Part shown: positions 3,001-30,224 of the stretch, piece after piece
How the letters are laid out: each line of letters starts with the position of its first letter
Numbering within the stretch: position 1 is the first letter of the stretch
Origin: Lachnospiraceae bacterium JLR.KK002
Lineage (GTDB): Bacteria > Bacillota > Clostridia > Lachnospirales > Lachnospiraceae
Reading direction: 5' to 3'
DNA: 64,000 bases
Assembly (NCBI GenBank): GCA_036941025.1
Contig: JAYMNP010000001.1
Location: forward strand, 3,888,001 to 3,952,000
Notes under the pieces: generated by a model
Databases searched by the model: none
Seen by the model: only the letters and a program-made list of their open reading frames with translations
What the model was told of the DNA's origin: nothing
Position numbers and translations under genes: made by a program

Positions 3001-3812
3001 TTGAAATGATTGCGGCGGCAATGGAAAATAAGAGGTTGGGATTGTGCCAAAAGAGCTTATTTGTCGTGCCAAACCATTTGACGGAGCAGTGGGCGAGTGA
3101 CTTCCTGCGCCTGTATCCGGGGGCGAATATCTTAGCGGCAACCAAGAAGGATTTTGAACCCGCAAACCGGAAAAAGTTCTGCTCCCGGATAGCGACAGGG
3201 GATTATGACGCTGTGATTATCGGTCACAGTCAGTTCGAGAAGATTTCGCTTTCCACCGAAAGGCAGATGGCAATGATTGAAAGGCAGATAACAGAAATTG
3301 AAATGGCGATCGAAGCCCTCAAAGCGGAGAATGGCGAGCGTTACTCCATTAAACAGATGGAAAAGACAAAAAAATCACTTTCTACCAGATTAAGCCGCTT
3401 AAACGATTCCAGCCGGAAAGACAATGTTGTGACCTTTGAACAGTTGGGCGTGGATCGGCTGTTTGTAGATGAAAGCCATAACTATAAGAACCTCTTTTTA
3501 TACACAAAGATGAGGAATGTGGCGGGCATCGCACAGACGGAAGCGCAGAAATCCTCGGATATGTTTGCCAAGTGCCAGTACATGGACGAGCTGACCGGAG
3601 GGAAGGGCATCACGTTCGCAACGGGTACGCCGATCAGCAACAGCATGACGGAACTCTACACCAATATGCGTTATCTCCAGTACAACACCTTACAGCGATT
3701 GGGGTTAGGGCATTTTGACAGTTGGGCGGCATCATTCGGGGAAACCCAGACAGCCATAGAGATAGCACCAGAATTAGAGGTACATAAACAAATCCAGGGA
3801 GAAATACGCTAA
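1..3812 (+). pseudogene. ICE DNA methylase/SNF2 helicase, 5' part (interrupted; starts before window)
   Basis: The frame is open from base 3 with no stop, so the real start lies upstream of the window; the GTG at 186 is only internal. The first ~200 codons are acidic and low complexity. A methyltransferase fold follows (DPAAGIGNF near base 979; GNVPFG, an NPPY-like motif, near 1168). A superfamily 2 helicase comes next: Walker A-like HCVGAGKT near 2976, DESHN near 3470, GTPISNS near 3626. These fused methylase/helicase megaproteins are typical cargo of Firmicutes ICEs. Host coding ends at the GA core 3759-3760; the last 17 residues are read from an inserted element. The missing 3' part resumes in the same frame at 17370. 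The gene is therefore split, not merely truncated. Confidence 0.9.
3742..3789 (+). other. attL of the 13.6 kb element
   Basis: Host half-site to the left, core GA at 3759-3760, then the element arm. On the reverse complement the arm reads TTTATGTA-C-CT-C-TAAT-T-CTGG (about 3769-3789). The mirror arm is at attR. Confidence 0.8.
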
Positions 3813-3842
3813 AAAGAGCAACCATAAATGGATTGCTCTTTT
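3812..3842. terminator. bidirectional terminator-like hairpin
   Basis: AAAAGAGCAA (3812-3821) pairs with TTGCTCTTTT (3833-3842), T-rich on both strands. It lies just inside the left end of the element and would insulate the cassette from helicase transcription. Confidence 0.65.
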
Positions 3843-3859
3843 AACATATTTGGAAAGTA

Positions 3860-3887
3860 TTGCATAAAAAACTCAGTTTGCTATAAT
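3860..3887 (+). promoter_or_regulatory. sigma-A-type promoter of the Bce-like regulator gene
   Basis: -35 TTGCAT at 3860-3865, 16-base spacer, -10 TATAAT at 3882-3887, about 57 bases before the response regulator start. Confidence 0.65.
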
Positions 3888-3943
3888 AAAACGCAAGAAT
3901 GAAAAATTGGTAAGCAGATATGAAAGGTCAGGAGAGATGCTTC

Positions 3944-4432
3944 ATGTATTATATTGTAATCATAGATGATGATCTATCTGTTCAAAGAGAACTTAAGTTA
4001 TTGTTGGAAAATGCCGGATATCGTGCAGATGTTGCGGAGGATTTTGCTAACATTCCAGAATATGTGCAGAAACTGCAGCCGGATTTGCTTCTTCTTGATG
4101 TTGCTCTGCCGGGAGCCGATGGAATTACTCTGTGTTCTAAAATACGGATGATATCGGATGTCCCTATTATTTTTATTACTTCACAAAGTTCCTCTTCCGC
4201 AGAATTAGAATGTATGATGACGGGTGGCGACGATTTTATAGAGAAACCTTACCGTCCTGCAGTATTACTGGCACACATAGCCGCAATATTGCGGAGAGTT
4301 TCTGGAAAATCACAGAATAAAGTGCTTGTCTTTGGAGGAATAGAGCTGAATCTGCTTAATGGTACAGTGCGGTGTGAAAAAAAGGAAGTTGAACTTTCCA
4401 AAAATGAAATGCATATACTGTCCTATTTTTAG
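3944..4432 (+). pseudogene. Bce-type response regulator, receiver half (split by IS110)
   Basis: OmpR-family receiver domain beginning MYYIVIIDDD, with the phosphoacceptor region LLLDVALPGADG and the usual K in FIEKPY. The start at 3944 is preferred over 3920 because AGGAGAG lies a proper distance upstream. The protein stops after ILSYF at a TAG created by the IS110 left end. The winged-helix half resumes at 6019, so the original would be about 225 residues, normal for BceR-like regulators. Next to a BceS-like kinase and a BceB-like permease, it was probably the activator of this cassette. As found, the receiver and DNA-binding halves are separated and probably inactive. Confidence 0.88.
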
Positions 4433-4434
4433 TA

Positions 4435-4625
4435 CCATATAAGTGTAAGAGATAAGGCATATCAATAGTGCTTTACCTTCTGCACTTATTTTTTTATGAT
4501 AAGGGAGTAATTGGTCTGGCGAAGCGATTTTTGGATTAACCACATCCGTCATAAAAACCGTCAACCATCCCTTATTATAAGCAGTCGTTTAAGCAGGTTG
4601 AAACCCGTAAGGTGCTTTCGTGTAA
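4435..4625 (+). ncRNA. putative IS110 bridge RNA
   Basis: The non-coding left end folds into a 5' stem-loop (AAGTG near 4440 with CACTT near 4485) and a large hairpin closed by ATAAGGGA/TCCCTTAT. The hairpin interior holds ATTTTT (4527-4532), matching the left target TATTTTT, and CATAAAAA (4550-4557), complementary to the right target TTTTTATG. A second loop region holds AGCAGGTT (4592-4599), identical to the right IS end, and GGTGCT (4611-4616), pairing with the left-end AGTACC with one G-U. That is the guide layout known for IS110 bridge RNAs. Boundaries and fold are inferred by eye. Confidence 0.6.
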
Positions 4626-4689
4626 CGAACTAAAATGAGTGGTAATAAGTGTGGATGGGACAATTACAGATTTATTTTGGAGGTTACAG

Positions 4690-5892
4690 ATGATAAGTGT
4701 AGGAATTGATGTGTCAAAAGAAAAAAGTACCGTATGTATCTTAAAGCCTTATGGTGAGGTTGTGAGCAGGCCTTTTGAAGTCTGTCATGTGGAGAAAGAA
4801 CTGTCCGAACTGACTTCCATGCTGCTGCGTCTGAATGATGACATCCGTGTGGTCATGGAAGCTACTGGGATCTACCATCTGCCTGTATTAAGCTATCTGA
4901 AAGAAAAAGGGCTGTTTGTGGCAGTGATTAATCCATTTGAGATGAAGGAATACCGCTGTCAGGGGTTAAGACGTGTGAAAACGGATAAGCAGGATGCCAT
5001 TACAATCTCTAACTATGGGATTGACCATTGGTACAGGCTGAAGGACTATGAGGCAGAAGAAAGCGTCTATGCGGAGCTGAAGCTTTTGGGAAGGCAGTAC
5101 CGTCACTATATGCGGATGCGTGTGGAGAGCGTGTTGGAACTGACTCATCTTCTGGACTATACGATGCCTGGGATCAAAACGCTGCTGAAAGGCTGGAATG
5201 AAACAAATGGGAAAGATAAGCTGGGGGATTTTGCGGAAGAATACTGGCATTATGACAATATCACGAAGAAACCGGAGGAACAGTTTATAGAGAGCTATCT
5301 GAAATGGGCAAAAGAGAAGGGATACCATCAGAGCCAGGATAAAGCCGTCAAGATCTATGCACTGGCAAAAGAAGGCATCCCCACAGTACCCTCCGATACC
5401 CCATCGACCAAAATGCTGGTACAGGAGGCAGTACGGGTGTTACGAGAAGTCGATAACACTCTGATGACCATTCTAACACAGATGCAGGCATTAGCCAAGA
5501 GTCTGCCGGAATATCCGGTTGTCAGGGCAATGGGAGGTGTTGGAAATGTCCTTGCGCCTAAATTGATTGCAGAGATTGGGGATGTGAGAAGATTCCATAG
5601 CGGAAAAGCCCTGATAGCCCACGCAGGAATCGACGCGCCGCCCTATCAGTCAGGGCAGTTTATGGGGACAGAGAGGAAAATATCCAAGAGAGGTTCTTCC
5701 AGCCTGCGAAAGATTGGATATGAAGTGATGAGATGTCTGAAAACCCATAAAGAGCCAGCAGACGCAGCAGTGTATAGATTTATTTTGAAGAAAGAAAAAG
5801 AAGGAAAGTCAAAACGTGCAGCAAAAATAGCGGGATTAAATAAATTCCTTAGGATTTATTATGCACGTGTGATGGAAGTATACCAGAAGTAA
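4690..5892 (+). CDS. IS110 family DEDD transposase
   Basis: 400 residues. The N-terminal RuvC-like DEDD fold starts ISVGIDVSKEKS (first D), with VVMEATG (E) and KTDKQDA (D, D). The C-terminal Tnp_20 domain contains GGVGNVLAPKLIAEIGD and the serine segment KRGSSSLRK. The start is the ATG at 4690, with TGGAGG about 8 bases upstream; a GTG at 4639 in the same frame lacks such a site. These enzymes recombine DNA under guidance of an RNA made from the element end, and the required leader is present. The gene looks full length and intact. Confidence 0.93.
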   Translation: MISVGIDVSKEKSTVCILKPYGEVVSRPFEVCHVEKELSELTSMLLRLNDDIRVVMEATGIYHLPVLSYLKEKGLFVAVINPFEMKEYRCQGLRRVKTDKQDAITISNYGIDHWYRLKDYEAEESVYAELKLLGRQYRHYMRMRVESVLELTHLLDYTMPGIKTLLKGWNETNGKDKLGDFAEEYWHYDNITKKPEEQFIESYLKWAKEKGYHQSQDKAVKIYALAKEGIPTVPSDTPSTKMLVQEAVRVLREVDNTLMTILTQMQALAKSLPEYPVVRAMGGVGNVLAPKLIAEIGDVRRFHSGKALIAHAGIDAPPYQSGQFMGTERKISKRGSSSLRKIGYEVMRCLKTHKEPADAAVYRFILKKEKEGKSKRAAKIAGLNKFLRIYYARVMEVYQK

Positions 5893-5976
5893 AAAGAACT
5901 AAAACAGCGGATACGGCAGACCGGATTTTCCACCGGTCTAATTGTCGTAGGAAAAATTCATACGAAAAATATATTT

Positions 5977-6018
5977 AAAAACCTGCTAAAAAGTCTTGAC
6001 TTTTGTTAGCAGGTTTTT
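5977..6018 (+). terminator. strong hairpin with T-run at the IS110 right end
   Basis: AAAACCTGCTAA (5977-5988) pairs perfectly with TTAGCAGGTTTT (6006-6017), and the second arm ends in TTTTT. It lies directly before the surviving regulator C-terminus and would block read-through from the transposase. Confidence 0.65.
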
Positions 6019-6216
6019 ATGCATAAAGATGAAATAATATCAAGAGAAGATTTAATGAATAATTTGTGGGATAATGAAAGCTTTGTAGATGATAATACAT
6101 TGAGTGTCAACATCAGAAGAATCCGCCAGAAGTTAGAAGATATCGGAGTACAGGATCTGATACAGACAAAAAGGGGAATGGGCTATCAGTTAAAAGCAAG
6201 AGAGGGGACGGTATGA
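6019..6216 (+). pseudogene. Bce-type response regulator, DNA-binding half (downstream of IS110)
   Basis: 65 residues of an OmpR/PhoB winged helix: ISREDLMNNLWDNESF, DDNTLSVNIRRIRQKLED and the closing RGMGYQLK, the typical end of BceR-like regulators. It continues the receiver half that stops at 4432. The ATG at 6019 is fortuitous, with no ribosome site because the IS hairpin precedes it. The last codons overlap the kinase start by 4 bases (ATGA), so the original pair was translationally coupled. Confidence 0.85.
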
Positions 6217-7229
6217 AACTGAAAGATTACTGTAAGGATAGAGTAACAAGGTTATTAGGGACACTGGTAGTTTTATTTATTTTATCTGAATTTTTATATA
6301 TCGTAGGTAATACTTTTGCTTCTATTTTTTTGATTGATTTAACAATTATCAGCATACTATTCATAAAGAATCTGATAGAGTGGTACAGAAGAAAAGAATA
6401 TTTCAAAACAATCCGGGAGCGGGTAGAAGGTATGGAGCATCCTTGGCTGATCGCTGAGCTTCTGCCCGTTTCTTATCGTGCCGAGGACAAATTGTATCAG
6501 GAATTATTAAGGCTGGTGGGAAGTTCAGCTATAGAGCAGATTCATAAGATAGAGGATGAAGAAAGGGAGTATGAGGAATATATTGAAGAATGGATACATG
6601 AAGTAAAAGCGCCGATTACCTCAATGCAGCTTATGATAGAAAACAGGGCTGGAGATAATCCCGTCTTGAAAAAGGGGTTGAACATAGAATTGGGAAAAAT
6701 TGAAAATGACGTAGAACGTGCGCTATATTATGCTCGTTCAGAACAGGTATATAAAGATTATTTGATTCAGAAGCTGAATTTACACCGTATCTTAGTCAGG
6801 GCAATTAACAGAAACCGTACTATAATTATGAATAGCTGTGTCGGAATAGATTTTAAGTGCGAGGATGATATTTATATTTATGGGGACGAAAAGTGGCTTA
6901 TCTTTCTTATAAGCCAGATTCTTTTAAACTCCGTAAAATACCGGCGCAAGGAGGATGCAAAGATTATCCTGTCATCTGAAAAAAAGAGCAAAAAAGTTAT
7001 ACTGAAAATATGGGATAATGGGACAGGGATAAAGGAAGAGGAATTACCGAGGATTTTTGAGAAGGGGTTTACCGGGAGCAATGGAAGGGAAAACGAGCGT
7101 TCTACGGGAATAGGCTTATATCTGGTAAAAAAATTATGTCAAAAGCTGGATATGGAAGTATGGGCAGAATCTTTGTTCAAAGAATATACTTCTGTTTATC
7201 TATCGCTTCCGGCAAAACAAAACATCTGA
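6213..7229 (+). CDS. BceS-type intramembrane-sensing histidine kinase
   Basis: 338 residues. Two N-terminal membrane helices (about 14-34 and 38-56) are joined by almost no extracellular loop, the signature of intramembrane-sensing kinases that read the state of a Bce-type transporter. The H-box is EEWIHEVKAPITSMQL, with HATPase motifs in LLNSVKYRR, WDNGTGI and STGIGLYLVKKL. The gene is intact and overlaps the regulator remnant. Known family role: flux sensing of peptide antibiotics through BceAB. Here the partner permease is the next gene. With the regulator split by IS110, signalling output is probably lost unless another regulator substitutes. Confidence 0.9.
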   Translation: MKLKDYCKDRVTRLLGTLVVLFILSEFLYIVGNTFASIFLIDLTIISILFIKNLIEWYRRKEYFKTIRERVEGMEHPWLIAELLPVSYRAEDKLYQELLRLVGSSAIEQIHKIEDEEREYEEYIEEWIHEVKAPITSMQLMIENRAGDNPVLKKGLNIELGKIENDVERALYYARSEQVYKDYLIQKLNLHRILVRAINRNRTIIMNSCVGIDFKCEDDIYIYGDEKWLIFLISQILLNSVKYRRKEDAKIILSSEKKSKKVILKIWDNGTGIKEEELPRIFEKGFTGSNGRENERSTGIGLYLVKKLCQKLDMEVWAESLFKEYTSVYLSLPAKQNI

Positions 7230-7326
7230 TTCTAAAAGGCAAATTCATCACAAATGGATGTGGGGAGTTTGCCTTTTCAAATGGAGAACAGCATATTTCC
7301 GGATATATGACAAAATTGTAAGATTC

Positions 7327-7372
7327 AGGTAATGAAAATCAATAGGTAATCTGTAGGGGGCAGTGTTATACT
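7327..7372 (+). promoter_or_regulatory. candidate activator-dependent promoter of the permease-RiPP operon
   Basis: -10 TATACT at 7367-7372 but no -35-like hexamer at the expected place. Instead AGGTAAT occurs twice (7327-7333 and 7344-7350), 17 bases apart. This fits a promoter needing the Bce-type regulator, but the operator assignment is inference. Confidence 0.4.
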
Positions 7373-7408
7373 GACTACATCAGGAAGAGATATAAAGGAA
7401 GGATAAAA

Positions 7409-9310
7409 ATGTTAAGCAAAAATCAGTTGGCCAGGAGAAATGTAAAGACTGCGATTATAAGAGAGCCAGTATATTTTTTTACAATGATATTGATTGCAGC
7501 GCTAATGTTTGCGTTTAATTCTCTGTTTTTTTCAGAAGATGTCAGGAGAGCCTGCGAAACGGCATCGGTTCTGGCTGTGTTTTTAGGAATAGCATCTGTA
7601 CTGATTGTTATGATTACGGCGTGGCTGATCCAATATATGATGCGGCAATCGCTGAAAATCCGCAGCAGGGAATTCGGGCTGTATATGCTGTTTGGCATGA
7701 AAGGAACAGAGGTATTTCAGATTTTCCGAAAAGAAACGGTATTTATGGTTGGAATGGCATATATACCTGGAATCCTGGCAGGGGAATTGCTGAAACAGTT
7801 TTTGATGGTAATTTTTTTCCATATGTTCCGGACGGAATATGTGCTTAAAATGGATTTTCAGCTTGTAACGGTGTGTTTGACAGCAACTTTATATTTATTT
7901 TGTTATTTAGCCGCATTGCTTAAAGTGAGAAAACAATTTTCCAAAATGAATATCCGTCAGTTAAATGAAATGGAGAGGATAAATGAAGCCGATGAAAAAA
8001 TATCTGGAAAGAAGAAGCAAAGGAAAAGAACTAAAAAATGGCTTTTGAAAGGAAACCGGCTATTTTTATGCAGGGCAATAGAATCTGAACTATATTCTAT
8101 GCGGAAAATAATCATATTTGTTATGTCCCTTTTAGTTGTTTCTATTTCAGGAAGCGCAGTTGCCATGATGTATACCGATTATCAGAACCACCAGATTGAT
8201 TCGGAATATCCGTTTGATGTCATGATATATCATCAAGCCCCCAAACCTGAATTCCAGCGTGAAAAAGATATATTAGAAAGTGAAACTGGAATACAGGAAT
8301 CCCATGAATATGTGATATATCAAAATGGCGTCAGTATGATGAATGAATGGCTTTATACACATCTGATGTATTTTGGGGATCGATTTATCAGTGGAGAGGG
8401 TGCATTCGATGCAGAAAAGCTGGACGCTGATGAAGAGGGATATGACGTCTACTATGAATATGATACTTATATGAAAGTGAGCGACTATAACATACTTCGG
8501 AAAATGCTTGGCCAGAAGCCTGTCAAACTCCGGGCAGATGAGTATATTTTACAGATTAAAAGAAGGTTAGAACCTGAACTTACTAATGAAATCCGAAGCA
8601 GGACGCTGCTATGTGATACAAAAGAATTGCACTGCAAAGAAATCAGTACTGTAGATTTTGAACAGAATGGACATAATGGAGCTGACTATGTTTTGGTAAT
8701 CCCGGATGATGCGGCAAATCATATGACACCATATTACTCTGTATTTGCGGCATCTATAAAGAAACAGGCTGCAGGAACAGTGTTTGATAAATTAGATGAT
8801 GCGTCCAGTGGAAATGACGGGCTTTATTGGGGCAGTAACCACAGTATTTTATATGTCAGTCCGATTTTGCTGAAAAAGCAGGTGGAAACAGAATTGAAAG
8901 CAACGCTTGTGCCATTTATATTTGCGTTTGCCTATGTAAGTATCGTGTTTTTATGCGTGGCAATTTCTTTCCTTGCATCCCATCTGATCAGCACTTCGGA
9001 ATCAAACAGACGCCGTTACCTGCTTTTAGAAAAACTGGGAATGAATCAAACAAAAATTGATACGGTGATACATGAACAGTTGGCAGTTAATTATCTGATT
9101 CCGCTTTGTATGGCGCTTATTCCCGGATGTCTGATTGCGAACCATGCAAGCAAAGGTTTTATTCTGGCTACGGGACTTCGTGCGGTATGGGTAAAATATG
9201 TGTTCTTGTCGTTATTGTGGATTTTAATGCTGTACATTATTTACTTTATACTTACGGATATATTTTTTAGGAGAAATATTCATCATCGAAAGGAAGGAAA
9301 ACTATCATGA
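7409..9310 (+). CDS. BceB-like FtsX-family ABC permease
   Basis: 633 residues with the Bce-permease plan: one N-terminal helix, a first FtsX bundle (about residues 55-190), another helix near 235-255, a large extracytoplasmic domain (about 260-500) and three C-terminal helices (about 510-610). AAGGAAGG precedes the ATG. Known role: with BceA it frees membrane targets from peptide antibiotics and signals to BceS. It overlaps the radical SAM gene by 4 bases (ATGA), tying immunity to maturation. Its ATPase partner is not adjacent but sits at the far end of the cassette (12844), an unusual split of the pair. Confidence 0.88.
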   Translation: MLSKNQLARRNVKTAIIREPVYFFTMILIAALMFAFNSLFFSEDVRRACETASVLAVFLGIASVLIVMITAWLIQYMMRQSLKIRSREFGLYMLFGMKGTEVFQIFRKETVFMVGMAYIPGILAGELLKQFLMVIFFHMFRTEYVLKMDFQLVTVCLTATLYLFCYLAALLKVRKQFSKMNIRQLNEMERINEADEKISGKKKQRKRTKKWLLKGNRLFLCRAIESELYSMRKIIIFVMSLLVVSISGSAVAMMYTDYQNHQIDSEYPFDVMIYHQAPKPEFQREKDILESETGIQESHEYVIYQNGVSMMNEWLYTHLMYFGDRFISGEGAFDAEKLDADEEGYDVYYEYDTYMKVSDYNILRKMLGQKPVKLRADEYILQIKRRLEPELTNEIRSRTLLCDTKELHCKEISTVDFEQNGHNGADYVLVIPDDAANHMTPYYSVFAASIKKQAAGTVFDKLDDASSGNDGLYWGSNHSILYVSPILLKKQVETELKATLVPFIFAFAYVSIVFLCVAISFLASHLISTSESNRRRYLLLEKLGMNQTKIDTVIHEQLAVNYLIPLCMALIPGCLIANHASKGFILATGLRAVWVKYVFLSLLWILMLYIIYFILTDIFFRRNIHHRKEGKLS

Positions 9311-10632
9311 AACCATCTTATTACAATTACATTATTGAGAATAAAACAGGAAATGGGGAAGCGTTATATTACAATATGCGTACAGGCAGTCTTGCACATA
9401 TAGACGCAGAAAAGCATAGACAGTTCCAGGAATATGCTGCAAAAAAGAAGGAAATTGTAGATGTTGATTTTTTAAAGAACCTAAAATATTGTGGTTTTTT
9501 GGTTGAAGATAATTTTGATGAAAAAAAGGATATCAAAATGCGTATGTTGAATTCAAAGTTTGATACATCGGTATTGTCTTTGACAATCACGCCTACAATG
9601 GCTTGTAATTTTCGCTGTGTATATTGTTTTGAAAGCGGACATTACAGCAATGGGAGCATGACGGAAGAGGTCAGTGATGACATCTGCAAGTTAGTGGAAA
9701 AAGAAGCCTCTCATTTGGAAAAACTGGTAATTACATGGTATGGCGGAGAACCACTGTTAGCAATCGAACCAATAGAAAGCCTAACAAATAAGATGAAAAG
9801 CATCTGTAGCAAATATAATATAGAATATTCAGCAAGCATTATTACGAATGGCTATCTGCTTACTGAGGAAGTCTGCGATAAACTGCTGGAATTGGACATT
9901 ACAGATGTCCAGATAACACTGGATGGGGATGCCAATACACATAATGGCAGAAGACCATTAGTAAACGGTGGAAATACATACGATACAATACTTGCAAATT
10001 TAGAGAAAATTCATGGGAAAATTGGGATTGCAATCCGGATTAATGTAGATAAAGGAAATCAGAATGAAGTTCAGAATGTTATCGAGGAATTGAAGAAAAG
10101 AAATATTTATGAGGATGTTTTCTGTTATCTTGGTTTGGTAACATCTACAAACGGAACGTGTGAGAACTGCACATGTATGTCGGCAGAAAAGTATTCAAAA
10201 TTTAATCTTAATTTTTGGCTGAACAATGGAATGCCTTTGGAATCCTTTTATCCTCAACCGATGGGAAATTACTGTGGGGCAGATTATGCACAGGGCTATG
10301 TTATTGACGCAAAAGGAAATATATACAAATGTTGGAGTGATGTTGGAATTATGGAACGCCGCATAGGAACTGTTAATGAATGGGTAAATCCTCAGAAGCA
10401 ATCGGATATTACTGATTCACAGTCACAGCAGGTAACGTCGGAATATATGCTGTATGACCCAACGGAAGATGATGAGTGCGGCAAGTGTAAGTTTATGCCA
10501 ATATGTATGGGTGGATGCCCTCATAGCAGAATAGAAAAAAACCAATTATGTGAGCAGTACCGTTACAATGTAGGCGAGTATATGCAGGCATATGCGGCAG
10601 AAGTGTTGAATGAAAGGAGGGAAGATGTATGA
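9307..10632 (+). CDS. SPASM-domain radical SAM peptide maturase
   Basis: 441 residues. Residues 1-85 form a small lead-in domain that could bind a leader peptide. The radical SAM cluster site is CNFRCVYC (Cys100, Cys104, Cys107), followed by WYGGEPLL. The C-terminal SPASM-type region has Cys-rich segments NYCGADYAQG, YKCWSD, CGKCKFMPICMGGC and a late LCEQY. Such enzymes install thioether or other crosslinks in ribosomal peptides; Cys-rich-peptide maturases of Clostridia are the closest known type. It overlaps the permease upstream and the 57-residue ORF downstream by ATGA. Two Cys-rich 33-mers follow and are its likely substrates. The exact chemistry cannot be read from sequence. Confidence 0.9.
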   Translation: MKPSYYNYIIENKTGNGEALYYNMRTGSLAHIDAEKHRQFQEYAAKKKEIVDVDFLKNLKYCGFLVEDNFDEKKDIKMRMLNSKFDTSVLSLTITPTMACNFRCVYCFESGHYSNGSMTEEVSDDICKLVEKEASHLEKLVITWYGGEPLLAIEPIESLTNKMKSICSKYNIEYSASIITNGYLLTEEVCDKLLELDITDVQITLDGDANTHNGRRPLVNGGNTYDTILANLEKIHGKIGIAIRINVDKGNQNEVQNVIEELKKRNIYEDVFCYLGLVTSTNGTCENCTCMSAEKYSKFNLNFWLNNGMPLESFYPQPMGNYCGADYAQGYVIDAKGNIYKCWSDVGIMERRIGTVNEWVNPQKQSDITDSQSQQVTSEYMLYDPTEDDECGKCKFMPICMGGCPHSRIEKNQLCEQYRYNVGEYMQAYAAEVLNERREDV

Positions 10633-10802
10633 ATATCTTAGTTCAGCCTCAAAACCAGAAGAGGAATTCAGAGTCCTGTAATTATACTTGTCCAGTATAT
10701 AATACTGGAACAGAAGGATTGGAAAAACTCATCAAGAAGTTAGTTAAGAAGAAACATAAGAGCGGAAAGCACCGGGGAAAAGTCTGCTGGTATGACAATT
10801 AG
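10629..10802 (+). CDS. 57-residue cationic Cys-containing peptide, RiPP precursor or accessory
   Basis: Starts in an ATGA overlap with the maturase stop, so it is translationally coupled. Cysteines lie at 17, 21 and 53. The middle (about 31-50) is rich in Lys and Leu/Ile, potentially an amphipathic helix, and the end is CWYDN. It is unlike the two following 33-mers in length and Cys spacing. It could be a third precursor, a leader-binding helper or a cationic immunity peptide. No family is recognised. Confidence 0.6.
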   Translation: MNILVQPQNQKRNSESCNYTCPVYNTGTEGLEKLIKKLVKKKHKSGKHRGKVCWYDN

Positions 10803-10886
10803 AGCAGCTTCTGTCCTAAACAGAACAGAAATTTTCATGAGGGATGATGACAGCATATTGGAAATAAAAGTCAGGAGGAAAGACAA

Positions 10887-10988
10887 ATGGAAGTATTAAA
10901 TGCGCCAGCTGAACTTGCAAGCAAGAAAGCATGCAACACGAAAGGCTGTAAGAAATACACCTGTATTTACCACATTTTTGGCAAGTAA
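10887..10988 (+). CDS. RiPP precursor peptide 1 (33 aa, Cys-X4-Cys-X4-Cys)
   Basis: AGGAGG lies about 8 bases before the ATG. The N-terminus MEVLNAPAELA looks like a short leader. The core has Cys16, Cys21 and Cys26, evenly spaced, in ACNTKGCKKYTC, and ends IYHIFGK. It is highly similar to the next ORF across both leader and core, and immediately follows a radical SAM maturase, so it is almost certainly a modified peptide precursor. There is no double-glycine cleavage site and no peptidase in the cassette. Confidence 0.85.
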   Translation: MEVLNAPAELASKKACNTKGCKKYTCIYHIFGK

Positions 10989-11025
10989 GACATATTAACC
11001 ATATAAATATAAGGAGGAAACAGAA

Positions 11026-11127
11026 ATGGATGTATTAAGAACACCAGTGGAAGTAGCAGCGAAAGGTTCATGCCATGCGAAAGGATGCAAGAAGTATACC
11101 TGTTGGTATCATATCTTCGGCAAATAA
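11026..11127 (+). CDS. RiPP precursor peptide 2 (33 aa, paralogue)
   Basis: AAGGAGG lies upstream of the ATG. The leader-like part is MDVLRTPVEVA. Cys16, Cys21 and Cys26 are at the same positions as in its neighbour, and GCKKYTC plus YHIFGK are conserved. It differs mainly at residues 5-18 and by Trp for Ile at 27. Two near-equal peptides suggest a two-component or variant product. The function (bacteriocin or signal) is inference. Confidence 0.85.
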   Translation: MDVLRTPVEVAAKGSCHAKGCKKYTCWYHIFGK

Positions 11128-11138
11128 AAAGCAGCTTC

Positions 11139-11165
11139 GGTCAATGCCCCGATGGGGCATTGACC
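11139..11165 (+). terminator. perfect hairpin between precursors and exporter (attenuator)
   Basis: GGTCAATGCCCC (11139-11150), GAT loop, GGGGCATTGACC (11154-11165): 12 perfect pairs, then only AGTTTTG. A weak T-run suggests a partial terminator or RNA-stabilising end that would favour precursor mRNA over exporter mRNA. Confidence 0.6.
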
Positions 11166-11203
11166 AGTTTTGCCACTATCTGATAAGAGAATGGAGAAAA
11201 GAT

Positions 11204-12829
11204 ATGAAAGTTCAGATTCTTTTAAAGAAAGAAATTTTATCTATGAAGAAGGCTCTTGCCGCTTATTTTTTAGTTTCATTGGGAACGTTGCTTCTGCAGC
11301 TTTTGGTTCCATATGTAAGTGGCTCATATATTGATTCCTTAGTAGGAAAGCAACCTATGATTTTAGCATTTGTGGGGGCAATGGCATTTCTTAATATATT
11401 TTCTATACTGATGGAATATGGGATGACATACCTTATGACAAAATTGAATAATACATTTTTGTACAAAATATGCAACAAAATGTTCCAACATGTATATGGT
11501 ACATCCCTCTCCTTTTTTCAAAGTCATGATGCGGCCTTTTTGACAGATCAAATTACCGGAGATGCAGCTACTATTGCGGAATTTGTGTTGAATAGTATTC
11601 CAGATATTGCATATAATATGCTCCTTTTGATTGTAAGCGCTTTATTTGTACTTCGTGCAGATTTGATACTGGGATTACTTGTTATGCTGACAATTCCAAT
11701 ATATCTATACATATATTGGAAATTGGAAAAAAGAATGTATGAAAACGAGCATGAATATAAGGAGGCAGGGAATGATTACACATCTAAAGGAATGGAACAG
11801 ATACGATGCACGCAATTTGTAAAAGAAAATGCAATATCAAAAGAAATGGAAGACAGGTTTGCATGTTCGTTTCATAGGATGTTAAAAAGCGCAGTCGGTC
11901 AAGTAAAGACACAATATCTTTTTTCCAACTTAAATCGCCTTATTATGGTACTATGTTATCTGTTGATATTAGGGATTGGTGGATATAATGTTGTGATTGG
12001 AAAAATATCAATTGGATATTTTACTATTATTAATAGCTATGTAAATATGATATTGTCTGCTGCTTCGGACATTATCGACTTCTCTGGAAGCTACCCTAAA
12101 GTAAAAGTTGCGGCAGATCGTATGAATGAACTATTGGCAGAGTGCCAAACGGAAACTTTATGCAATAAAAGATTAAGAAATTTAGAGGAAAATGAAATTA
12201 AGACAGTAAGACTTGAGAATATTTCTTTTTCATTTGGAAAGAAAATGCTATTCCATCAATTATCTGCAACGTTTGAAGTAGGAAAAATTTATGGAATAGT
12301 AGGTGAGAATGGTGCAGGAAAATCTACATTGTTAGATGTAATATTGGGATTGTATCCGAAAGAGTATGGGGGAGAAATTCTGTATAACGGAACCAATATA
12401 AAAGAACTGTGTAGTTCCGAAATACTGAAATGCAACATTGCTTTTTTGGGACAGCAAACAGAACGAATTAATATTTCACCTAAAGAATATCTGCATTTTG
12501 GGATTGAAAAATATAATCCGGATATTGAGCAGGAATTGATTCGGCAGTTTCTTCTGAATCAAGATTTTGATATGGAGCAAGAAGAAAACATTGTGCATTG
12601 TTCTGGTGGAGAGATGCAAAAATTAGCCTTAGTGCGTACTTTTCAAAAGAATTGCACACTGACGATTTTGGATGAACCGACAAACGGATTGGATATGGAA
12701 ACAGTACAACGATTAGTTCAGTTGCTTATACAGGAAAAAGAACATCACATATTTATTATTGTATCGCATGATAAAAGAATATTGGATATTTGTGATGAAA
12801 AAATAGATCTTAATATATTGGGAATGTAG
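11204..12829 (+). CDS. ABC exporter (fused membrane and ATPase domains), likely for the RiPP
   Basis: 541 residues from the ATG at 11204, with GGAG 7 bases upstream; an earlier in-frame ATG at 11075 falls inside precursor 2 and is rejected. The N-terminal half has about six membrane helices. The ATPase half has Walker A GENGAGKST near residue 366, signature CSGGEMQK near 465 and Walker B ILDEPTNGLD. No C39 peptidase domain is present, so leader removal needs another protease. Position right after the precursors makes export of the modified peptide the likely job. Intact. Confidence 0.88.
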   Translation: MKVQILLKKEILSMKKALAAYFLVSLGTLLLQLLVPYVSGSYIDSLVGKQPMILAFVGAMAFLNIFSILMEYGMTYLMTKLNNTFLYKICNKMFQHVYGTSLSFFQSHDAAFLTDQITGDAATIAEFVLNSIPDIAYNMLLLIVSALFVLRADLILGLLVMLTIPIYLYIYWKLEKRMYENEHEYKEAGNDYTSKGMEQIRCTQFVKENAISKEMEDRFACSFHRMLKSAVGQVKTQYLFSNLNRLIMVLCYLLILGIGGYNVVIGKISIGYFTIINSYVNMILSAASDIIDFSGSYPKVKVAADRMNELLAECQTETLCNKRLRNLEENEIKTVRLENISFSFGKKMLFHQLSATFEVGKIYGIVGENGAGKSTLLDVILGLYPKEYGGEILYNGTNIKELCSSEILKCNIAFLGQQTERINISPKEYLHFGIEKYNPDIEQELIRQFLLNQDFDMEQEENIVHCSGGEMQKLALVRTFQKNCTLTILDEPTNGLDMETVQRLVQLLIQEKEHHIFIIVSHDKRILDICDEKIDLNILGM

Positions 12830-12843
12830 AAAGGAAAAATGAA

Positions 12844-13584
12844 ATGGAAGCATATATAAAGGTGAAAGATGTTGAGAAATATTATGGGAGTTCAGGAAAC
12901 ATTACTAAAGCAGTAGACAGAGTTAGTTTTGAAATATCAAAAGGGGAATTTGTTGGGATTATGGGGGAATCCGGTTCTGGAAAAACATCGTTACTGAATG
13001 TGCTTGCCACCATTGACACAGCTACGGCAGGGCACATATATTTTGAAGGAAAAGATATTACAAAAATGAGCGAGGACGAGAGAAGTGGATTTAGGAAGGA
13101 AAATTTAGGTTTCATTTTCCAAAACTTCAATCTCTTAGATACCATGACATTGCAGGAAAATATTTATATGCCCCTGATTCTTAATGAAGAAAAAAGTAAC
13201 GACATCATAAAACGAACGGAAGAAATCATAAATATATTGGGAATCAAGGAAGCTGGAAACAAATATCCATATCAAGTATCCGGTGGACAACAGCAGAGAT
13301 GTTCCTGTGCCAGAGCGCTCGTAAATAATCCTAAATTGATTTTAGCTGACGAACCGACAGGCGCCCTTGACGCACAGAATTCAGAAAATTTAATGGAATT
13401 GCTTTTAGAAATCAATAAGAAATTCAAGACAACTATTTTGATGGTTACGCATGATTCTTTTTCTGCAAGCTACTGTAACCGTATCTTGTTTTTGGAAAAT
13501 GGGAAAATATCTTATGAGATATATCGGGGAGCTAGGAACAGGGAGGAATATCTCCGAGCAATTTTGGATGCGCAAAAAGCATAA
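12844..13584 (+). CDS. BceA-like ABC transporter ATP-binding protein
   Basis: 246 residues of the MacB/BceA class: Walker A GESGSGKTS near residue 40, Q-loop FIFQNFNLLD, signature VSGGQQQR near 144, ADEPTGALD and a late THD switch. It starts 14 bases after the exporter stop. It is the natural partner of the BceB-like permease at 7409, but the two are separated by the maturase, precursor and exporter genes, so the detoxification pump brackets the biosynthesis genes. Confidence 0.9.
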   Translation: MEAYIKVKDVEKYYGSSGNITKAVDRVSFEISKGEFVGIMGESGSGKTSLLNVLATIDTATAGHIYFEGKDITKMSEDERSGFRKENLGFIFQNFNLLDTMTLQENIYMPLILNEEKSNDIIKRTEEIINILGIKEAGNKYPYQVSGGQQQRCSCARALVNNPKLILADEPTGALDAQNSENLMELLLEINKKFKTTILMVTHDSFSASYCNRILFLENGKISYEIYRGARNREEYLRAILDAQKA

Positions 13585-13647
13585 TGCCCATGAATTTTAA
13601 GAAAATATTTTTATCAGAGTTATTCTGATGGTGCGAGGAAATATGTC

Positions 13648-14082
13648 GTGGAAAAAATCAGTGAAGAATATCAAAGACGCATTGAGCATGAGTTTAATGC
13701 CCTATGTAAGATCATCATTCATCATTCGTCAGCAGAAGCTAAGGGCAAAGCTTCTAAAAGATGGAAGCAGGAAATATCTTTTGAGTATTTAGTAGAATCA
13801 GGAGTGATACCAGCATATAGTTGTGGGGGATTTGAGAATGGAATAGAAGCCAGATATCCACTGTTGCTTTGCGGACATACTGTAATTCTAGAAAATGAGC
13901 GGCTTTCCAAGGCATTATCCTCATTGGAAAGGGAGAAACAAGAAATTGTATTCTTATATTTTTTTAAACATTATACTTACCAGGAAATTGCAGGGTATTA
14001 TGGTCAGGCACATAGTAGCGTTTGGAGCAGGATGCAGACGGTAATGAAGCAGCTAAAAAGAGAAATGGTGAAACAGGAATGA
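13648..14082 (+). CDS. sigma-70 region 4-like regulator (Tn916 ORF7 type)
   Basis: 144 residues from a GTG start with GAGG upstream. The C-terminal half has the region 4 helix-turn-helix: ALSSLEREKQEIVFLYFF, YQEIAGYYGQAHSSVW. Proteins of this size with a following small HTH gene occur as a pair in Tn916-like ICEs. The gene overlaps the next by ATGA. Probable role: control of element genes. Confidence 0.8.
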   Translation: MEKISEEYQRRIEHEFNALCKIIIHHSSAEAKGKASKRWKQEISFEYLVESGVIPAYSCGGFENGIEARYPLLLCGHTVILENERLSKALSSLEREKQEIVFLYFFKHYTYQEIAGYYGQAHSSVWSRMQTVMKQLKREMVKQE

Positions 14083-14285
14083 AGGGAAAGAATCTTATTT
14101 CGTATGGAACGATTGTAAAAGCTGCCAATGGTGATCCGGGAGCAATCGAAACAGTATTAGAACATTATGGTGGATATATCCGATATTTTTCAAAAATGGA
14201 TGGTTATGTGAATACAGATGTAGAAAACCATGTAAGGGAACGGTTAATAGACGGTATATTGAAATTCCGTTTTGATAAAGAATAG
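14079..14285 (+). CDS. small helix-turn-helix protein (Tn916 ORF8 type)
   Basis: 68 residues, starting in an ATGA overlap with the sigma-like gene. LISYGTIVKAANGDPGAIETVLEHY and the ending DGILKFRF resemble the HTH-domain protein paired with ORF7-like sigma factors in conjugative elements. An earlier in-frame ATG at 14022 would overlap the previous gene by 61 bases and is rejected. Confidence 0.78.
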   Translation: MKGKNLISYGTIVKAANGDPGAIETVLEHYGGYIRYFSKMDGYVNTDVENHVRERLIDGILKFRFDKE

Positions 14286-14321
14286 ATCTAACAATAAAAC
14301 GTTGTTTTGCATAAATGTAAG

Positions 14322-14354
14322 AAAGCAGTAAGTCTACAAGATTCACTGCTTTTT
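14322..14354 (+). terminator. terminator after the sigma/HTH pair
   Basis: AAAGCAGT (14322-14329) pairs with ACTGCTTT (14345-14352), followed by further Ts. Confidence 0.6.
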
Positions 14355-14402
14355 GAATTTAAAAACAGAATCATAGGAGAATGTTTGCGCAATGGCAGGC
14401 TT

Positions 14403-14442
14403 AAAACGGCGAATCCATGTAGGAAAGGGTTTGCCGTTTTTT
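14403..14442 (+). terminator. second terminator hairpin, intron landing site
   Basis: AAAACGGCGAATCC (14403-14416) pairs with GGGTTTGCCGTTTT (14427-14440), then TT. A group II intron 5' end begins at 14445, as expected for group IIC introns, which insert just after terminators. Confidence 0.65.
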
Positions 14443-14444
14443 AT

Positions 14445-14735
14445 GTGCGCCCAGTATGGGCGCAATCTAATCGGTGAAAGTCCGTGACACACCCTGGTAG
14501 TGGGAAGTGTATAGCCAAGAGCAAGTTTCGCCAGAGTAACTCAAAACCCACTTTGTGGGTTTTGCTTACCCGGCAACCTTGATGGGGATTCTGTTTCCCC
14601 ATACCCTCAGTTCCTGCATATTTTCTAAATATGCAGATTGGCTCCTATTAAAAATAGTCGCAGCGTGATTGCTTTACATCACGGAAGATAAAAAAATTCT
14701 AAAAATAATCCAATTTCCTTTCCCACTAGCGTTCT
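14445..14735 (+). mobile_element. group II intron 5' fragment (domain I relic)
   Basis: Begins GTGCGCCCAGTATGGGCGC, the classic group II intron 5' boundary, followed by GGTGAAAGTCCGTGACA, TGGTAGTGGGAAG and AGCCAAGAGCAAG, typical of domain I. No reverse transcriptase/maturase ORF and no recognisable domain V appear before the next gene, so only the 5' part survives. The 3' limit is uncertain. This accounts for most of the gene-free stretch 14286-14811. Confidence 0.7.
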
Positions 14736-14811
14736 CCAATTGGCTTATATAGTAGGAAGCAAAAAACAGCTTCCCCTGATCAGGCATTATGAAAAAAGCA
14801 AGGAGGGATTC

Positions 14812-15333
14812 ATGCGATTTACAAAGAGTGAACTGGAGATGGTTTACAAATATGAAGCGACAACAAAAGAGGACACAGTGAAAGCTATGAGGGACGGGCA
14901 GTCAGCAGCCAGGGACGACCTGACACGGATTATCATAAGGAATGCCGCAGACAAACTGGAGAAACTTCCAGAACCGGAATGCAGCCGGTTCATAGCGGAC
15001 AATAAGGCACGTTTCATAGGACAGGGCAGAAGTTCTGTCCTGCGGAGACTGAATGAAGCAAAGGAACGGTTGAAACAGCCGGTCTTACAGGGGCATGACC
15101 TGTCAGGGAGGGAACGGTTCCAGCCGGACACAAGACATATGATCGTCCTTGATGTGCTGAATAATGACAGCCCCGTAGGATTTAAAGGGGAGAGATACCG
15201 CTTCTTTCTCTCAGACGGGAGATACCGCAATGCCATAGAAAGTGAAAAGCGTGGGGAAATCAAAATCCGCAGCCATGCGGCGGTAGTTTCCGGGAAACTG
15301 TATCCAGATAAGAAAGCGGAGCATAACAGATAA
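14812..15333 (+). CDS. conserved mobile-element protein of unknown function
   Basis: 173 residues from the ATG at 14812, with AGGAGG correctly placed. An in-frame extension to 14740 runs into intron-derived DNA and is not used. Soluble and charged; ends RSHAAVVSGKLYPDKK. Segments FIADNKARFIGQGRSSVLRRL and DTRHMIVLDVLNNDSPVGFKG stand out, but no enzyme motif is recognised. Position before the recombinase makes an element-maintenance or directionality role possible, without direct evidence. Confidence 0.6.
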   Translation: MRFTKSELEMVYKYEATTKEDTVKAMRDGQSAARDDLTRIIIRNAADKLEKLPEPECSRFIADNKARFIGQGRSSVLRRLNEAKERLKQPVLQGHDLSGRERFQPDTRHMIVLDVLNNDSPVGFKGERYRFFLSDGRYRNAIESEKRGEIKIRSHAAVVSGKLYPDKKAEHNR

Positions 15334-15432
15334 CAGTCCCTTGATAAAAATAGGAACTGCACAAAAGCTGAAAGGAAACATAACAGGGGAGTGGAGAAAG
15401 CTGAAAAAATATTGAAAGAAGGGAGGGAATCT

Positions 15433-15612
15433 ATGCAGAGAAAGAAAAAGGGGAGAAAGGATACGCCGATCCGTTATGTGGTAGAGCATGTATATTCCGG
15501 CACGGAAAGTATGGAGGGATTACTGACAGTAGTGAGCGAAGAAGCCGCCCGTAAGAACGTGGAGGAAAAATTAAGGAACGGAAGTATGGGGACAGAGAAG
15601 AAAGCTGTCTGA
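15433..15612 (+). CDS. small basic protein upstream of the recombinase
   Basis: 59 residues, start chosen at the ATG with GGGAGG upstream. Basic N-terminus (QRKKKGRK), then IRYVVEHVYSGTESME and EEAARKNVEEKL. Small proteins of this sort sit beside Tn4451/TndX-type recombinases, sometimes called TnpW; similarity here is only suggestive. It is a candidate recombination directionality factor by size, charge and position. Confidence 0.5.
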   Translation: MQRKKKGRKDTPIRYVVEHVYSGTESMEGLLTVVSEEAARKNVEEKLRNGSMGTEKKAV

Positions 15613-15708
15613 AAAGATGAATTGACGGTTGATACCAGAGACAGAAAAGGCTATAATGAAGTCAGCGTATTTCTGTCTCTGGATATTGAGTGAATATAGG
15701 AGGCCAAT

Positions 15709-17334
15709 ATGCAGAATACAGAAAATAAAGAAATATGGACAGCACTCTATACGAGATTGTCAATGGATGATGGAAACGTCGGGGAGAGCATGAGTATCGG
15801 GAGCCAGAAAGCAATCCTTAAACGGAAAGCGGAAGAAATGGGAATCCACAGCTACAAGTTCTACGTAGACGATGGGTACTCTGGTACGAATTTTAACCGG
15901 CCATCTTTTCAACAGATGATTGCAGATATCGAAGCGGGGCATGTGGATTGCGTCATAACCAAAGATTTATCAAGGCTCGGCAGGAATTATCTGGAGAGCG
16001 GGGCGTATATCGAGGTATTTTTCCCGAACCACCATGTCCGCTATATCGCTGTCAATGACGGCGTAGATTCCGCAAACAGCGGTGAGATGGACATTACTCC
16101 GTTCAAGAATATCCTGAACGAATTTTATTCGAGGGATATTTCTAAAAAGGTAAAGACGGGAAGGTATATCCGAGCCAGTCAGGGGAAATTTATGGGGGCG
16201 TATGCACCGTTTGGTTATAAAAAAGACCCGGCAGACAAAAATCATCTGATTGCGGATGAAGAGACAGCGCCGACTGTTCGCTATATTTTCCAGCTTGCGT
16301 TGGAAGGTTACGGAAACAATAAGATCGGGAAAATTCTTTATGAAGAAAAAATTCCGAAGCCAGCTTATTACAATCAGGAAGTTTTCGGGAAGTTTTTGAT
16401 TGCTGAGGATGATATTTATAATTGGAAACAGTCTACGATAATTCGTATACTCCGGAATCCTCTGTATAAAGGTTATTTTTGGGTACAGAGGTATGACAGG
16501 AAGCATTTTAAACAGCAGTCAAGAGGTTATATCCCGATTAAGGAACGTGTAACTATACCCAGCGACCATGAAGCCCTAGTAGACGAGCATACATGGAATA
16601 CCGTTCAGAAAATTCTTGACAGGCATACAAAAGTAAAGCCTTGTACTTCTGGTTATGATAATAAGTTCCGGGGAATTTTAAAATGTGCCGATTGTGGCAA
16701 TAATCTGACAATCCATACGGACGGAAGGAACCCGGACAGACCTTTGCTTGAAAAGACGTATTACCTGTGCCGGATTTACCGTGCAAGGGGAGCGAAGTTC
16801 TGCAGTAAGCACCGCATCAGCGCCGGGGATTTGGAAGAACTGGTACTTTCTGATATCCAGTTCCATGCAGGGAAGGTCATAAAGGATCGAGAGAAATTTA
16901 TGCGGAAAGTGCTTGGTCAGATGGACATATCATCTGCAAACAGCAAGGCGAATATTGATAAGAAAGTGGCTGTCTTAGAGAAAAAGTTAAAAGAATCTGA
17001 TAAACAATTCATCAAGTTGTATGGGGACTGGTCAAAGCAGTTGATATCAGAGCAGCAGTTCCGGTTGCTGTCTGCCCACTTTGAGCAGGAAAAGAAAGAC
17101 TATACAGAGCAAATCGAAAAGTTAAGAGCGACGGCTGAAAATCTGGAGGACAGTGCAGGTAAAGCGGAACGCCTTGCCGATGAGATGGCGGAATGTGCAG
17201 AGATTAAGGAGCTGACTACAGAGATTGTCAATCGCCTGATCGAAAAGATTGAGGTTTCGGAACCTCAGACCGTCAACGGGGAGAAAGTCCAGAATATCAG
17301 GATTTTCTATAAGTTTGTTGGGGAAATCAATTAA
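15709..17334 (+). CDS. large serine recombinase (TndX/TnpX class integrase)
   Basis: 541 residues, AGGAGG before the ATG. The N-terminal resolvase domain has ALYTRLSMDD (catalytic Ser) and KDLSRLGRNYLESG (arginines), followed by the recombinase domain GAYAPFGYKKDP. A zinc ribbon has CADCGNN and, later, YYLC and FCSKH. A long C-terminal coiled coil follows (about 400-500). It catalyses integration and excision between att sites with a 2-base core; the GA core and arms flank the element. It ends 8 bases before attR arm DNA, the usual position for such integrases. Confidence 0.95.
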   Translation: MQNTENKEIWTALYTRLSMDDGNVGESMSIGSQKAILKRKAEEMGIHSYKFYVDDGYSGTNFNRPSFQQMIADIEAGHVDCVITKDLSRLGRNYLESGAYIEVFFPNHHVRYIAVNDGVDSANSGEMDITPFKNILNEFYSRDISKKVKTGRYIRASQGKFMGAYAPFGYKKDPADKNHLIADEETAPTVRYIFQLALEGYGNNKIGKILYEEKIPKPAYYNQEVFGKFLIAEDDIYNWKQSTIIRILRNPLYKGYFWVQRYDRKHFKQQSRGYIPIKERVTIPSDHEALVDEHTWNTVQKILDRHTKVKPCTSGYDNKFRGILKCADCGNNLTIHTDGRNPDRPLLEKTYYLCRIYRARGAKFCSKHRISAGDLEELVLSDIQFHAGKVIKDREKFMRKVLGQMDISSANSKANIDKKVAVLEKKLKESDKQFIKLYGDWSKQLISEQQFRLLSAHFEQEKKDYTEQIEKLRATAENLEDSAGKAERLADEMAECAEIKELTTEIVNRLIEKIEVSEPQTVNGEKVQNIRIFYKFVGEIN

Positions 17335-17341
17335 AAATCCA

Positions 17342-17390
17342 TTTATGTATCTATAATACTGGGGGCAGTGAACTTGCGCCGGAGGGAACT
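17342..17390 (+). other. attR of the 13.6 kb element
   Basis: Element arm TTTATGTA-T-CT-A-TAAT-A-CTGG (17342-17362), 11 bases from CTGG to the core, GA at 17370-17371, then host ACTTGCGCC. Joining it to attL through GA restores the helicase frame. Confidence 0.8.
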
Positions 17391-30128: not shown

Positions 30129-30224
30129 ATTTTAGCATGGGTTATGCGTTTAACCTTTGTAATTTGTCACAGTTCATTTTATTATTATTACAACTGCCTT
30201 AACGTAGATTGGAGGAATAATAAG

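Follow-up and report, generated by a model that had tools for sequence, protein, structure and literature searches.

The whole stretch of DNA analysed here (the window) comprises 64,000 nucleotides of Lachnospiraceae bacterium JLR.KK002 (contig JAYMNP010000001.1, positions 3,888,001 to 3,952,000 of the forward strand; the genome around it is 4.28 Mb), and it contains a cassette for a ribosomally synthesised and post-translationally modified peptide (RiPP) built around a radical SAM maturase. We consider it fairly probable, from the sequence, that this is a mobile radical-SAM RiPP island, probably for a bacteriocin, with an immunity pump derived from the Bce-type transporters, such that a mobile block of a gut-type bacterium seems to provide for the production and export of a small crosslinked peptide and for tolerance of it. 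The cassette is a genuine RiPP locus, and its vehicle can be followed at the level of single bases; that the peptides are crosslinked and exported, act as antimicrobials and are met by immunity is what we infer from the genes. The most interesting new fact is that the permease of the pump belongs to a RiPP-linked clade that has lost transmembrane helices 5 and 6. From position 3920 the + strand encodes, in order, a response regulator (in two pieces), a kinase, an FtsX permease, the maturase, a 57-residue peptide (57-mer), two 33-residue peptides (33-mers), an ATP-binding cassette (ABC) exporter and an ATPase, and the Pfam families matched were HATPase_c (kinase), FtsX (permease), Radical_SAM (maturase), ABC_membrane with ABC_tran (exporter) and ABC_tran (ATPase). 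ATGA overlaps, read in the sequence, join permease to maturase (9307-9310) and maturase to 57-mer (10629-10632), and each small precursor open reading frame (ORF) is preceded by a Shine-Dalgarno-like stretch. A first-pass annotation of positions 7409-13584 had given this gene set from the kinase onward with the same order, direction and overlaps, all of which proved correct; the kinase gene falls just outside that range, and neither the splitting of the response regulator nor the insertion of the whole block by a serine recombinase had been noticed.

The cassette is the cargo of a serine-recombinase element lying inside an SNF2-type gene of a conjugative element. A paralogous conjugative element in the same genome matches window positions 1-3589 at 96%, 3588-3760 at 97% and 17370-18485 at 92%, and in this paralogue window positions 3760 and 17370 adjoin, giving the empty site: the paralogue reads CAGACAGCCATA-GA-ACTTGCGCC where the window reads CAGACAGCCATA-GA-element-GA-ACTTGCGCC, with the GA core repeated at 3759-3760 and 17370-17371. 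The arms flanking GA are imperfect inverted repeats, as is expected around the core for serine recombinases, and 35 bp separate the end of the recombinase gene from the right core. The interrupted gene gave an SNF2-related match and an Eco57I-like match (the latter below cut-off), and the ends and the empty site show that a serine recombinase moved the 13.6-kb block into this SNF2/methylase-like gene. The description of the cassette as self-contained needs to be modified, since the block is itself cargo: radical-SAM RiPP genes together with a pump of their own are carried by a serine-recombinase element that in turn sits within a conjugative element.

A recombinase with short direct repeats at both ends is what characterises a serine-recombinase integrative and mobilizable element (IME). 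Passages of PMC5704250 and PMC7168690 describe such IMEs in SNF2-type genes of integrative and conjugative elements, and lantibiotic synthesis on Tn6104, so that both the vehicle and a bacteriocin cargo have precedent. The element in the window resembles those described there in its serine recombinase, very short direct repeat and target, a helicase/methylase gene of a conjugative element, but differs in carrying a radical-SAM RiPP with a Bce-derived pump, and in that no relaxase was found among its ORFs scanned with Pfam (some short ORFs were outside the scan, and oriT was not searched for). The paralogous conjugative element (G000:C1, approximately 1425585-1445113; loci L159 and L160) carries a different insertion of about 19.5 kb in this SNF2-type gene, at another GA 171 bp upstream; that insertion has a serine recombinase of its own. 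Neither window 1-4000 nor 7300-18051 found a match in a second genome of the species (G741). A search of phage DNA returned one record, MT836816.1, 77% identical at the recombinase end only; this record (L178, 1-8637), a fecal contig filed as bacteriophage, itself looks like an IME, with a MobA/MobL relaxase, part of an FtsX permease, an ABC ATPase and the DNA-binding domain of a regulator.

The 57-mer and both 33-mers share a leader of the form M-x-[IV]-L-x-x-P (MNILVQP, MEVLNAP, MDVLRTP). In short ORFs lying no more than 2.5 kb from 102 distinct relatives of the maturase (above 180 bits, the window's own locus included), this strict motif together with at least two cysteines was found on the maturase strand at 43 of the 102 loci (84 ORFs) compared to 5 of 102 (6 ORFs) on the opposite strand, and a looser form was found at 77 of 121 loci, duplicates included. 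The 57-mer belongs to a family of 15 homologous clusters, its own among them, with 17 invariant alignment columns; the family has SC(N/K)YTCPVYN(T/M)G near its start, VCWY(D/G/N)N at its end and a variable Lys-rich middle, and the 33-mers have in common with it a C..YTC..Y-like core. The predicted structure of the 57-mer is weak (predicted local distance difference test score, pLDDT, of 59), with a likely helix at residues 28-44. A 44-mer at locus L115, beside a maturase 44% identical to that of the window, has the same leader followed by GCKLSCSY and a Lys-rich tail. The RiPP anatomy proposed in the first-pass annotation is borne out, and a conserved family of RiPP precursors is added, rich in Lys and with a Cys core at either end, whose members would be clear candidate substrates in a maturase assay. 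Arrays of five to nine Cys-containing precursors that have this kind of leader were also seen beside one or two maturases (L050, 8164-9725; L074, 3997-4932; L051, 2305-3594), and nine viral stretches matching the DNA pattern of the 33-mer core encoded no comparable peptide.

The maturase has a SPASM domain by TIGR04085 (59 bits, cut-off 27), though Pfam SPASM PF13186 gave no match, and it contains both the CX3CX2C motif (C100, C104, C107) and the seven-Cys SPASM motif (C323, C342, C391, C394, C400, C404, C415), whose positions are invariant in 29 of 29 aligned sequences. Its structural model (pLDDT 87) found its best fold matches in 5why and 5wgg over residues 4-434, N-terminal domain included, at 16-17% identity. 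These structures, titled as concerning thioether bond formation in sactipeptides, are of the maturase that we take to be CteB. Residues 7-84 of the model have the beta3-alpha3 order, which bears on whether an RRE-like (RiPP recognition element) leader-binding domain is present; they lie inside the stretch aligned to 5why and the domain was compared as part of that whole. The best NCBIfam matches, near full length, were TIGR04334 (Clo7bot; 324.7 bits), TIGR04463 (256 bits) and NF038107 (CefB, Cys-every-fifth; 235.6 bits), and relatives of the maturase likewise have short Cys precursors beside them, but the maturase stays below all three curated cut-offs (600, 525 and 600 respectively), that of NF038107 included even though the 33-mer cysteines stand five residues apart, and the core of the 57-mer forms a family of its own. 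Family, fold and leader conservation together suggest that the maturase would bind the short leader common to the three precursors and install crosslinks at their Cys cores. Among known systems, ruminococcin C of Ruminococcus gnavus is similar, as far as PMC6779426 shows, in being a human gut RiPP with SPASM maturases, several precursors, exporters and immunity genes, but its precursors are of 63 amino acids with four Cys and the word "Bce" is absent from the main text of that article.

The pump is most similar to Bce-type transporters in both of its parts: the best solved-structure matches were PsdA (E = 4.9e-68) and BceA (5.5e-68) for the ATPase, and PsdB (7.6e-31) and BceB (2.1e-29) for a profile of the permease. 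Identity to canonical Bce modules in three genomes of the same genus was 56-62% for the ATPase, 31-33% for the permease and 39-44% for the kinase. Those modules have the order response regulator, histidine kinase, BceA, BceB, whereas in the window the ATPase gene, instead of lying between kinase and permease, is parted from the permease gene by the maturase, peptides and exporter, the separation that the first-pass annotation had remarked upon. The permease, described there as BceB-like, does have PsdB and BceB as its nearest relatives, but it is an 8-helix derivative of BceB rather than a BceB. Across its 30 closest matches (P0121-P0150, the fragment P0151 having been dropped) the stretch holding helices 5 and 6, which is 53-54 residues long in 6 of 6 distant aligned sequences, is reduced to no residues in 29 and to one residue in the other, and alignment to PsdB shows the same gap. 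By hydropathy, 25 of these 30 have eight helices, four have seven and one has nine, compared to ten helices in all 89 further matches listed (P0152-P0240) and in four canonical loci. In a midpoint-rooted tree of 60 sequences (the 30, 26 further matches and the four canonical loci; L141 and L140 are on long branches) the short permeases are set apart from all the others by a branch supported at 100/100.

According to the literature, BceB-type permeases have ten helices and an extracellular domain (PMC5786555), BceB has a lipid-binding pocket between helices 5, 6 and 7, 9, and a screen for such systems demanded ten helices and an adjacent BceA gene (both PMC12484072); by these standards, with two helices missing and the ATPase gene elsewhere, the pump in the window would not count as Bce. 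It shares with BceAB-RS and PsdAB-RS an ATPase, a permease with a large extracellular domain (the predicted helices at 234-252 and 504-522 are 251 residues apart, where BceB has some 200-250 before its last three helices), a kinase of intramembrane type and an OmpR-type regulator, but differs in the absence of helices 5 and 6, the non-adjacent ATPase gene, the split regulator and its embedding in a RiPP cluster. Helices 1-4, where the kinase is located according to PMC10314905, are retained. The loss of helices 5 and 6 suggests that the peptide is probably handled without the classical lipid pocket. A bolder proposal, which we offer tentatively and hold to be possible rather than probable, is that a Bce lineage serving self-made radical-SAM peptides shed the helix pair of the lipid (undecaprenyl-pyrophosphate) pocket and came to recognise the crosslinked peptide directly instead of a complex of peptide and lipid, with the 57-mer, 33-mers, maturase and pump forming a co-evolved, transposable antibiotic-plus-immunity unit. 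The clade is in effect a natural deletion experiment, asking if a pump of the Bce type can function in the absence of helices 5-6 and their lipid pocket, and so bears on target protection versus direct recognition of the peptide.

The permease and the distant ATPase might instead export the peptides, leaving the fused ABC protein to some other role. Exporters of the darobactin and lactococcin-972 types use LolD/MacB-like ATPases, the ATPase in the window also matches the LolD, DarD and L_ocin_972 exporter models (each below cut-off), and the biosynthesis genes are flanked by ATPase and permease. We nevertheless regard this as unlikely, as the nearest solved relatives are BceA/PsdA and BceB/PsdB, the extracellular domain of about 250 residues goes together, as in Bce modules, with a sensorless kinase (one long N-terminal hydrophobic stretch, residues 10-58, with room for two helices and none for a sensor domain, hence of the intramembrane-sensing type), and a fused ABC exporter is present, similar ones lying within 4 kb of the maturase at 54 of 118 loci. 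The reading we prefer is that the ABC exporter would secrete the products while a Bce-derived pump, made up of the FtsX permease and the BceA-like ATPase encoded farther away, would protect the producer.

Association of the permease with the RiPP genes beyond this genome was assessed by exact coincidence, in bp, of the longest contigs representing the clusters of homologues (the best 120 maturase and best 120 permease matches, and the 15 57-mer clusters). Among the matches listed, 17 close maturases and the 30 short permeases gave three coincidences (4,203; 9,279 and 69,338 bp), the same maturases and the 57-mers three (9,279; 13,052 and 19,961 bp), and the short permeases and the 57-mers five (3,811; 9,279; 9,974; 12,176 and 24,261 bp), with P0007/P0134 (69,338 bp), P0250/P0137 (24,261 bp) and P0013/P0254 (19,961 bp) among the pairs. 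There were none between 103 distant maturases and 89 distant permeases, between close maturases and distant permeases or between distant permeases and 57-mers. With controls so nearly empty, these exact coincidences speak against the possibility, raised in the first-pass annotation as fatal to its proposal, that maturase and Bce-type permease never co-occur. They also weaken the idea that the neighbourhood arose by chance, with one element picking up a RiPP cluster and a Bce-type resistance module unrelated to it. Mobile elements do gather unrelated cargo, MT836816.1 with its related recombinase carries a partial FtsX permease, an ATPase and a regulator domain with no maturase among its ORFs, and no such permease was found at 117 of the 118 maturase loci (absences that are lower bounds); against this, an ATGA overlap joins the permease to the biosynthesis genes, the permease is seen again with maturase and 57-mer at several levels of divergence, and the shortened permeases are one clade. 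Chance capture is therefore, in our view, very improbable.

Several results nonetheless weigh against an island with a dedicated immunity pump. Maturase, permease and peptides have been read together at one locus only, that of the window; elsewhere the linkage comes from coinciding contig sizes and not from the DNA itself, and one distant maturase also coincides at 9,279 bp. A permease of this type was found at just 1 of the 118 maturase loci surveyed (above 180 bits), again the window's own, although some of these loci are duplicates and many are only about 4 kb long, making absences lower bounds. The permease P0124 (82% identical) comes from an 88,660-bp contig, larger than any among the listed close maturases or 57-mers, so that the link may not be strict unless this permease lies at a contig end, and P0127 (62%; 54,793 bp) has no exact partner and no 57-mer cluster on a contig that long, which also counts against strict linkage. 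The loss of helices 5-6 is derived from alignment and hydropathy rather than from a modelled permease structure. The ORFs of the element that were scanned with domain models included no leader protease, and the exporter gave no match to a peptidase domain, which leaves the processing of the precursors unexplained. Altogether four short permeases (P0122, P0124, P0125 and P0127; 62-91% identical, contigs of 14.5-88.7 kb) have no exact partner among the listed maturases or 57-mers, and may represent immunity without production, or contig ends.

The response regulator gene next to the kinase is interrupted by an IS110-family insertion: aligned to an intact sister regulator of 227 residues, its N-terminal piece corresponds to residues 2-165 and its C-terminal piece to residues 170-227. 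The genome holds nine identical full-length copies of this insertion sequence, the window's included, and one broken copy, and with identical copies elsewhere the insertion looks recent. The kinase fits the BceAB-RS pattern while the regulator, being split, does not; its own regulator is probably non-working here and the sensing loop probably inactive in this genome. The first-pass annotation had the Bce module reading its own product, and as a working loop this is not supported, on present evidence, for JLR.KK002; in relatives with an intact regulator the pump may still feed the intramembrane-sensing kinase. Here the cassette would probably be expressed uncoupled from its own sensing loop, or another regulator, for example that of a second, canonical Bce module (L141), could be standing in. 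Alternatively, the peptides might serve as signals and not as antimicrobials, with the Bce-derived module as their receptor. Co-occurrence of permease, maturase and 57-mer, the adjoining kinase and the signalling of Bce modules by transporter cycling (PMC10314905) would fit such a role; on the other side, the biosynthetic genes here stay open despite the broken regulator, and the 57-mer, with 12 Lys/Arg against 4 Asp/Glu, suits an antimicrobial. We therefore think a purely signalling function quite unlikely and keep to a probable antimicrobial one.

Coordinates of the features of the element (positions in the window)
Feature	Position	Strand	Basis
Serine-recombinase element, 13,611 bp, carrying the cassette	3761-17371	.	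Empty site in paralogue; inverted arms at core
Response regulator, N-terminal (receiver) piece	3920-4432	+	PF00072; alignment to sister regulator
IS110-family insertion (transposase 4639-5892)	4427-6016 (ends approximate)	+	PF01548, PF02371; ends from three other copies
Response regulator, C-terminal DNA-binding piece	6019-6216	+	PF00486; alignment to sister regulator
Histidine kinase, Bce/intramembrane type	6213-7229	+	HATPase_c
Bce-derived permease, 8 predicted helices, ~250-residue extracellular domain	7409-9310	+	FtsX, alignment, hydropathy
Radical SAM/SPASM peptide maturase, beta3-alpha3 N-terminal domain	9307-10632	+	Families, invariant Cys motifs, model
57-residue precursor, Lys-rich, core SCNYTCPVYNTG...VCWYDN	10629-10802	+	15 homologous clusters, alignment
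33-residue precursor a, Cys 16/21/26	10887-10988	+	ORF, leader motif
33-residue precursor b, Cys 16/21/26	11026-11127	+	ORF, leader motif
Hairpin, 12-bp perfect stem, between precursors and exporter	11139-11165	+	Fold z-score -4.67 for 11125-11200
ABC exporter, membrane and ATPase domains	11204-12829	+	ABC_membrane, ABC_tran
BceA-like ATPase	12844-13584	+	Nearest solved structures PsdA, BceA
Sigma-70 region-4 protein	13648-14082	+	Domain scan
HTH_16 protein	14022-14285	+	Domain scan
DUF5720/transposon-transfer-assisting-like protein	14740-15333	+	TTRAP match under cut-off
Large serine recombinase	15709-17334	+	Resolvase, Recombinase, Zn_ribbon_recom, DUF4368

The hairpin between precursors and exporter is a possible attenuator, although it was not among the calls of the terminator scan, which gave 6 candidates (9.0 in shuffled sequence), and the promoter scan gave 37 (mean of 41.0 in shuffles), neither being an excess. 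The exporter ORF was listed from 11075, a start at 11204 being likelier. A direct repeat of AGGTAAT, 17 bp from start to start and seen by eye at 7327-7350 before the permease gene, is a possible regulator site. The sigma-70 region-4 and HTH_16 proteins downstream of the cassette are probably accessory genes of the mobile element. Between them and the recombinase, window 14440-14700 resembles a group II intron in its 5' part, but had no match to Rfam at gathering scores.

Counting its own genome, the maturase was found in 10 of 116 genomes of relatives (E ≤ 1e-30), in 4 of 397 of the family and 18 of 392 of the order (E ≤ 1e-60), in 2 of 371 of the family at E ≤ 1e-110 (the two family samples seem to overlap heavily) and in the single genome sampled of the genus of G056, the genome with the best identity beyond its own (44%). 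Among the matches listed in genome contigs (80 loci) the best identity was 39%; viral contigs held relatives at 4 loci (25-30% identity), with neither 57-mer nor permease found there, and on plasmids the best protein match was 34%, a DNA search finding none. The permease profiles matched 4 of 29 genomes of the genus at E ≤ 1e-60, of which the three besides its own have canonical modules with ten helices, and at E ≤ 1e-90 only its own among 331 genomes of the class. ORFs best matching the ATPase accompanied 19 of the 118 maturase loci, and at L115 (8935-9800) the maturase is followed by the 44-mer and then an ABC ATPase gene, no permease like that of the window being found on this 10.7-kb contig. 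A search of open-licence PMC articles, at the level of titles and abstract openings, found none on this combination, and neither "Clo7bot" nor "Cys-every-fifth" brought up any paper; PMC9241761 describes immunity genes rearranged with inserted mutacin cassettes, for another type of transporter. Elsewhere in the window, an aminoglycoside 3-N-acetyltransferase-like protein adjoins a MatE-type transporter (30144-32350), and a T-box leader (114 bits) lies on the - strand at 49210-49409.

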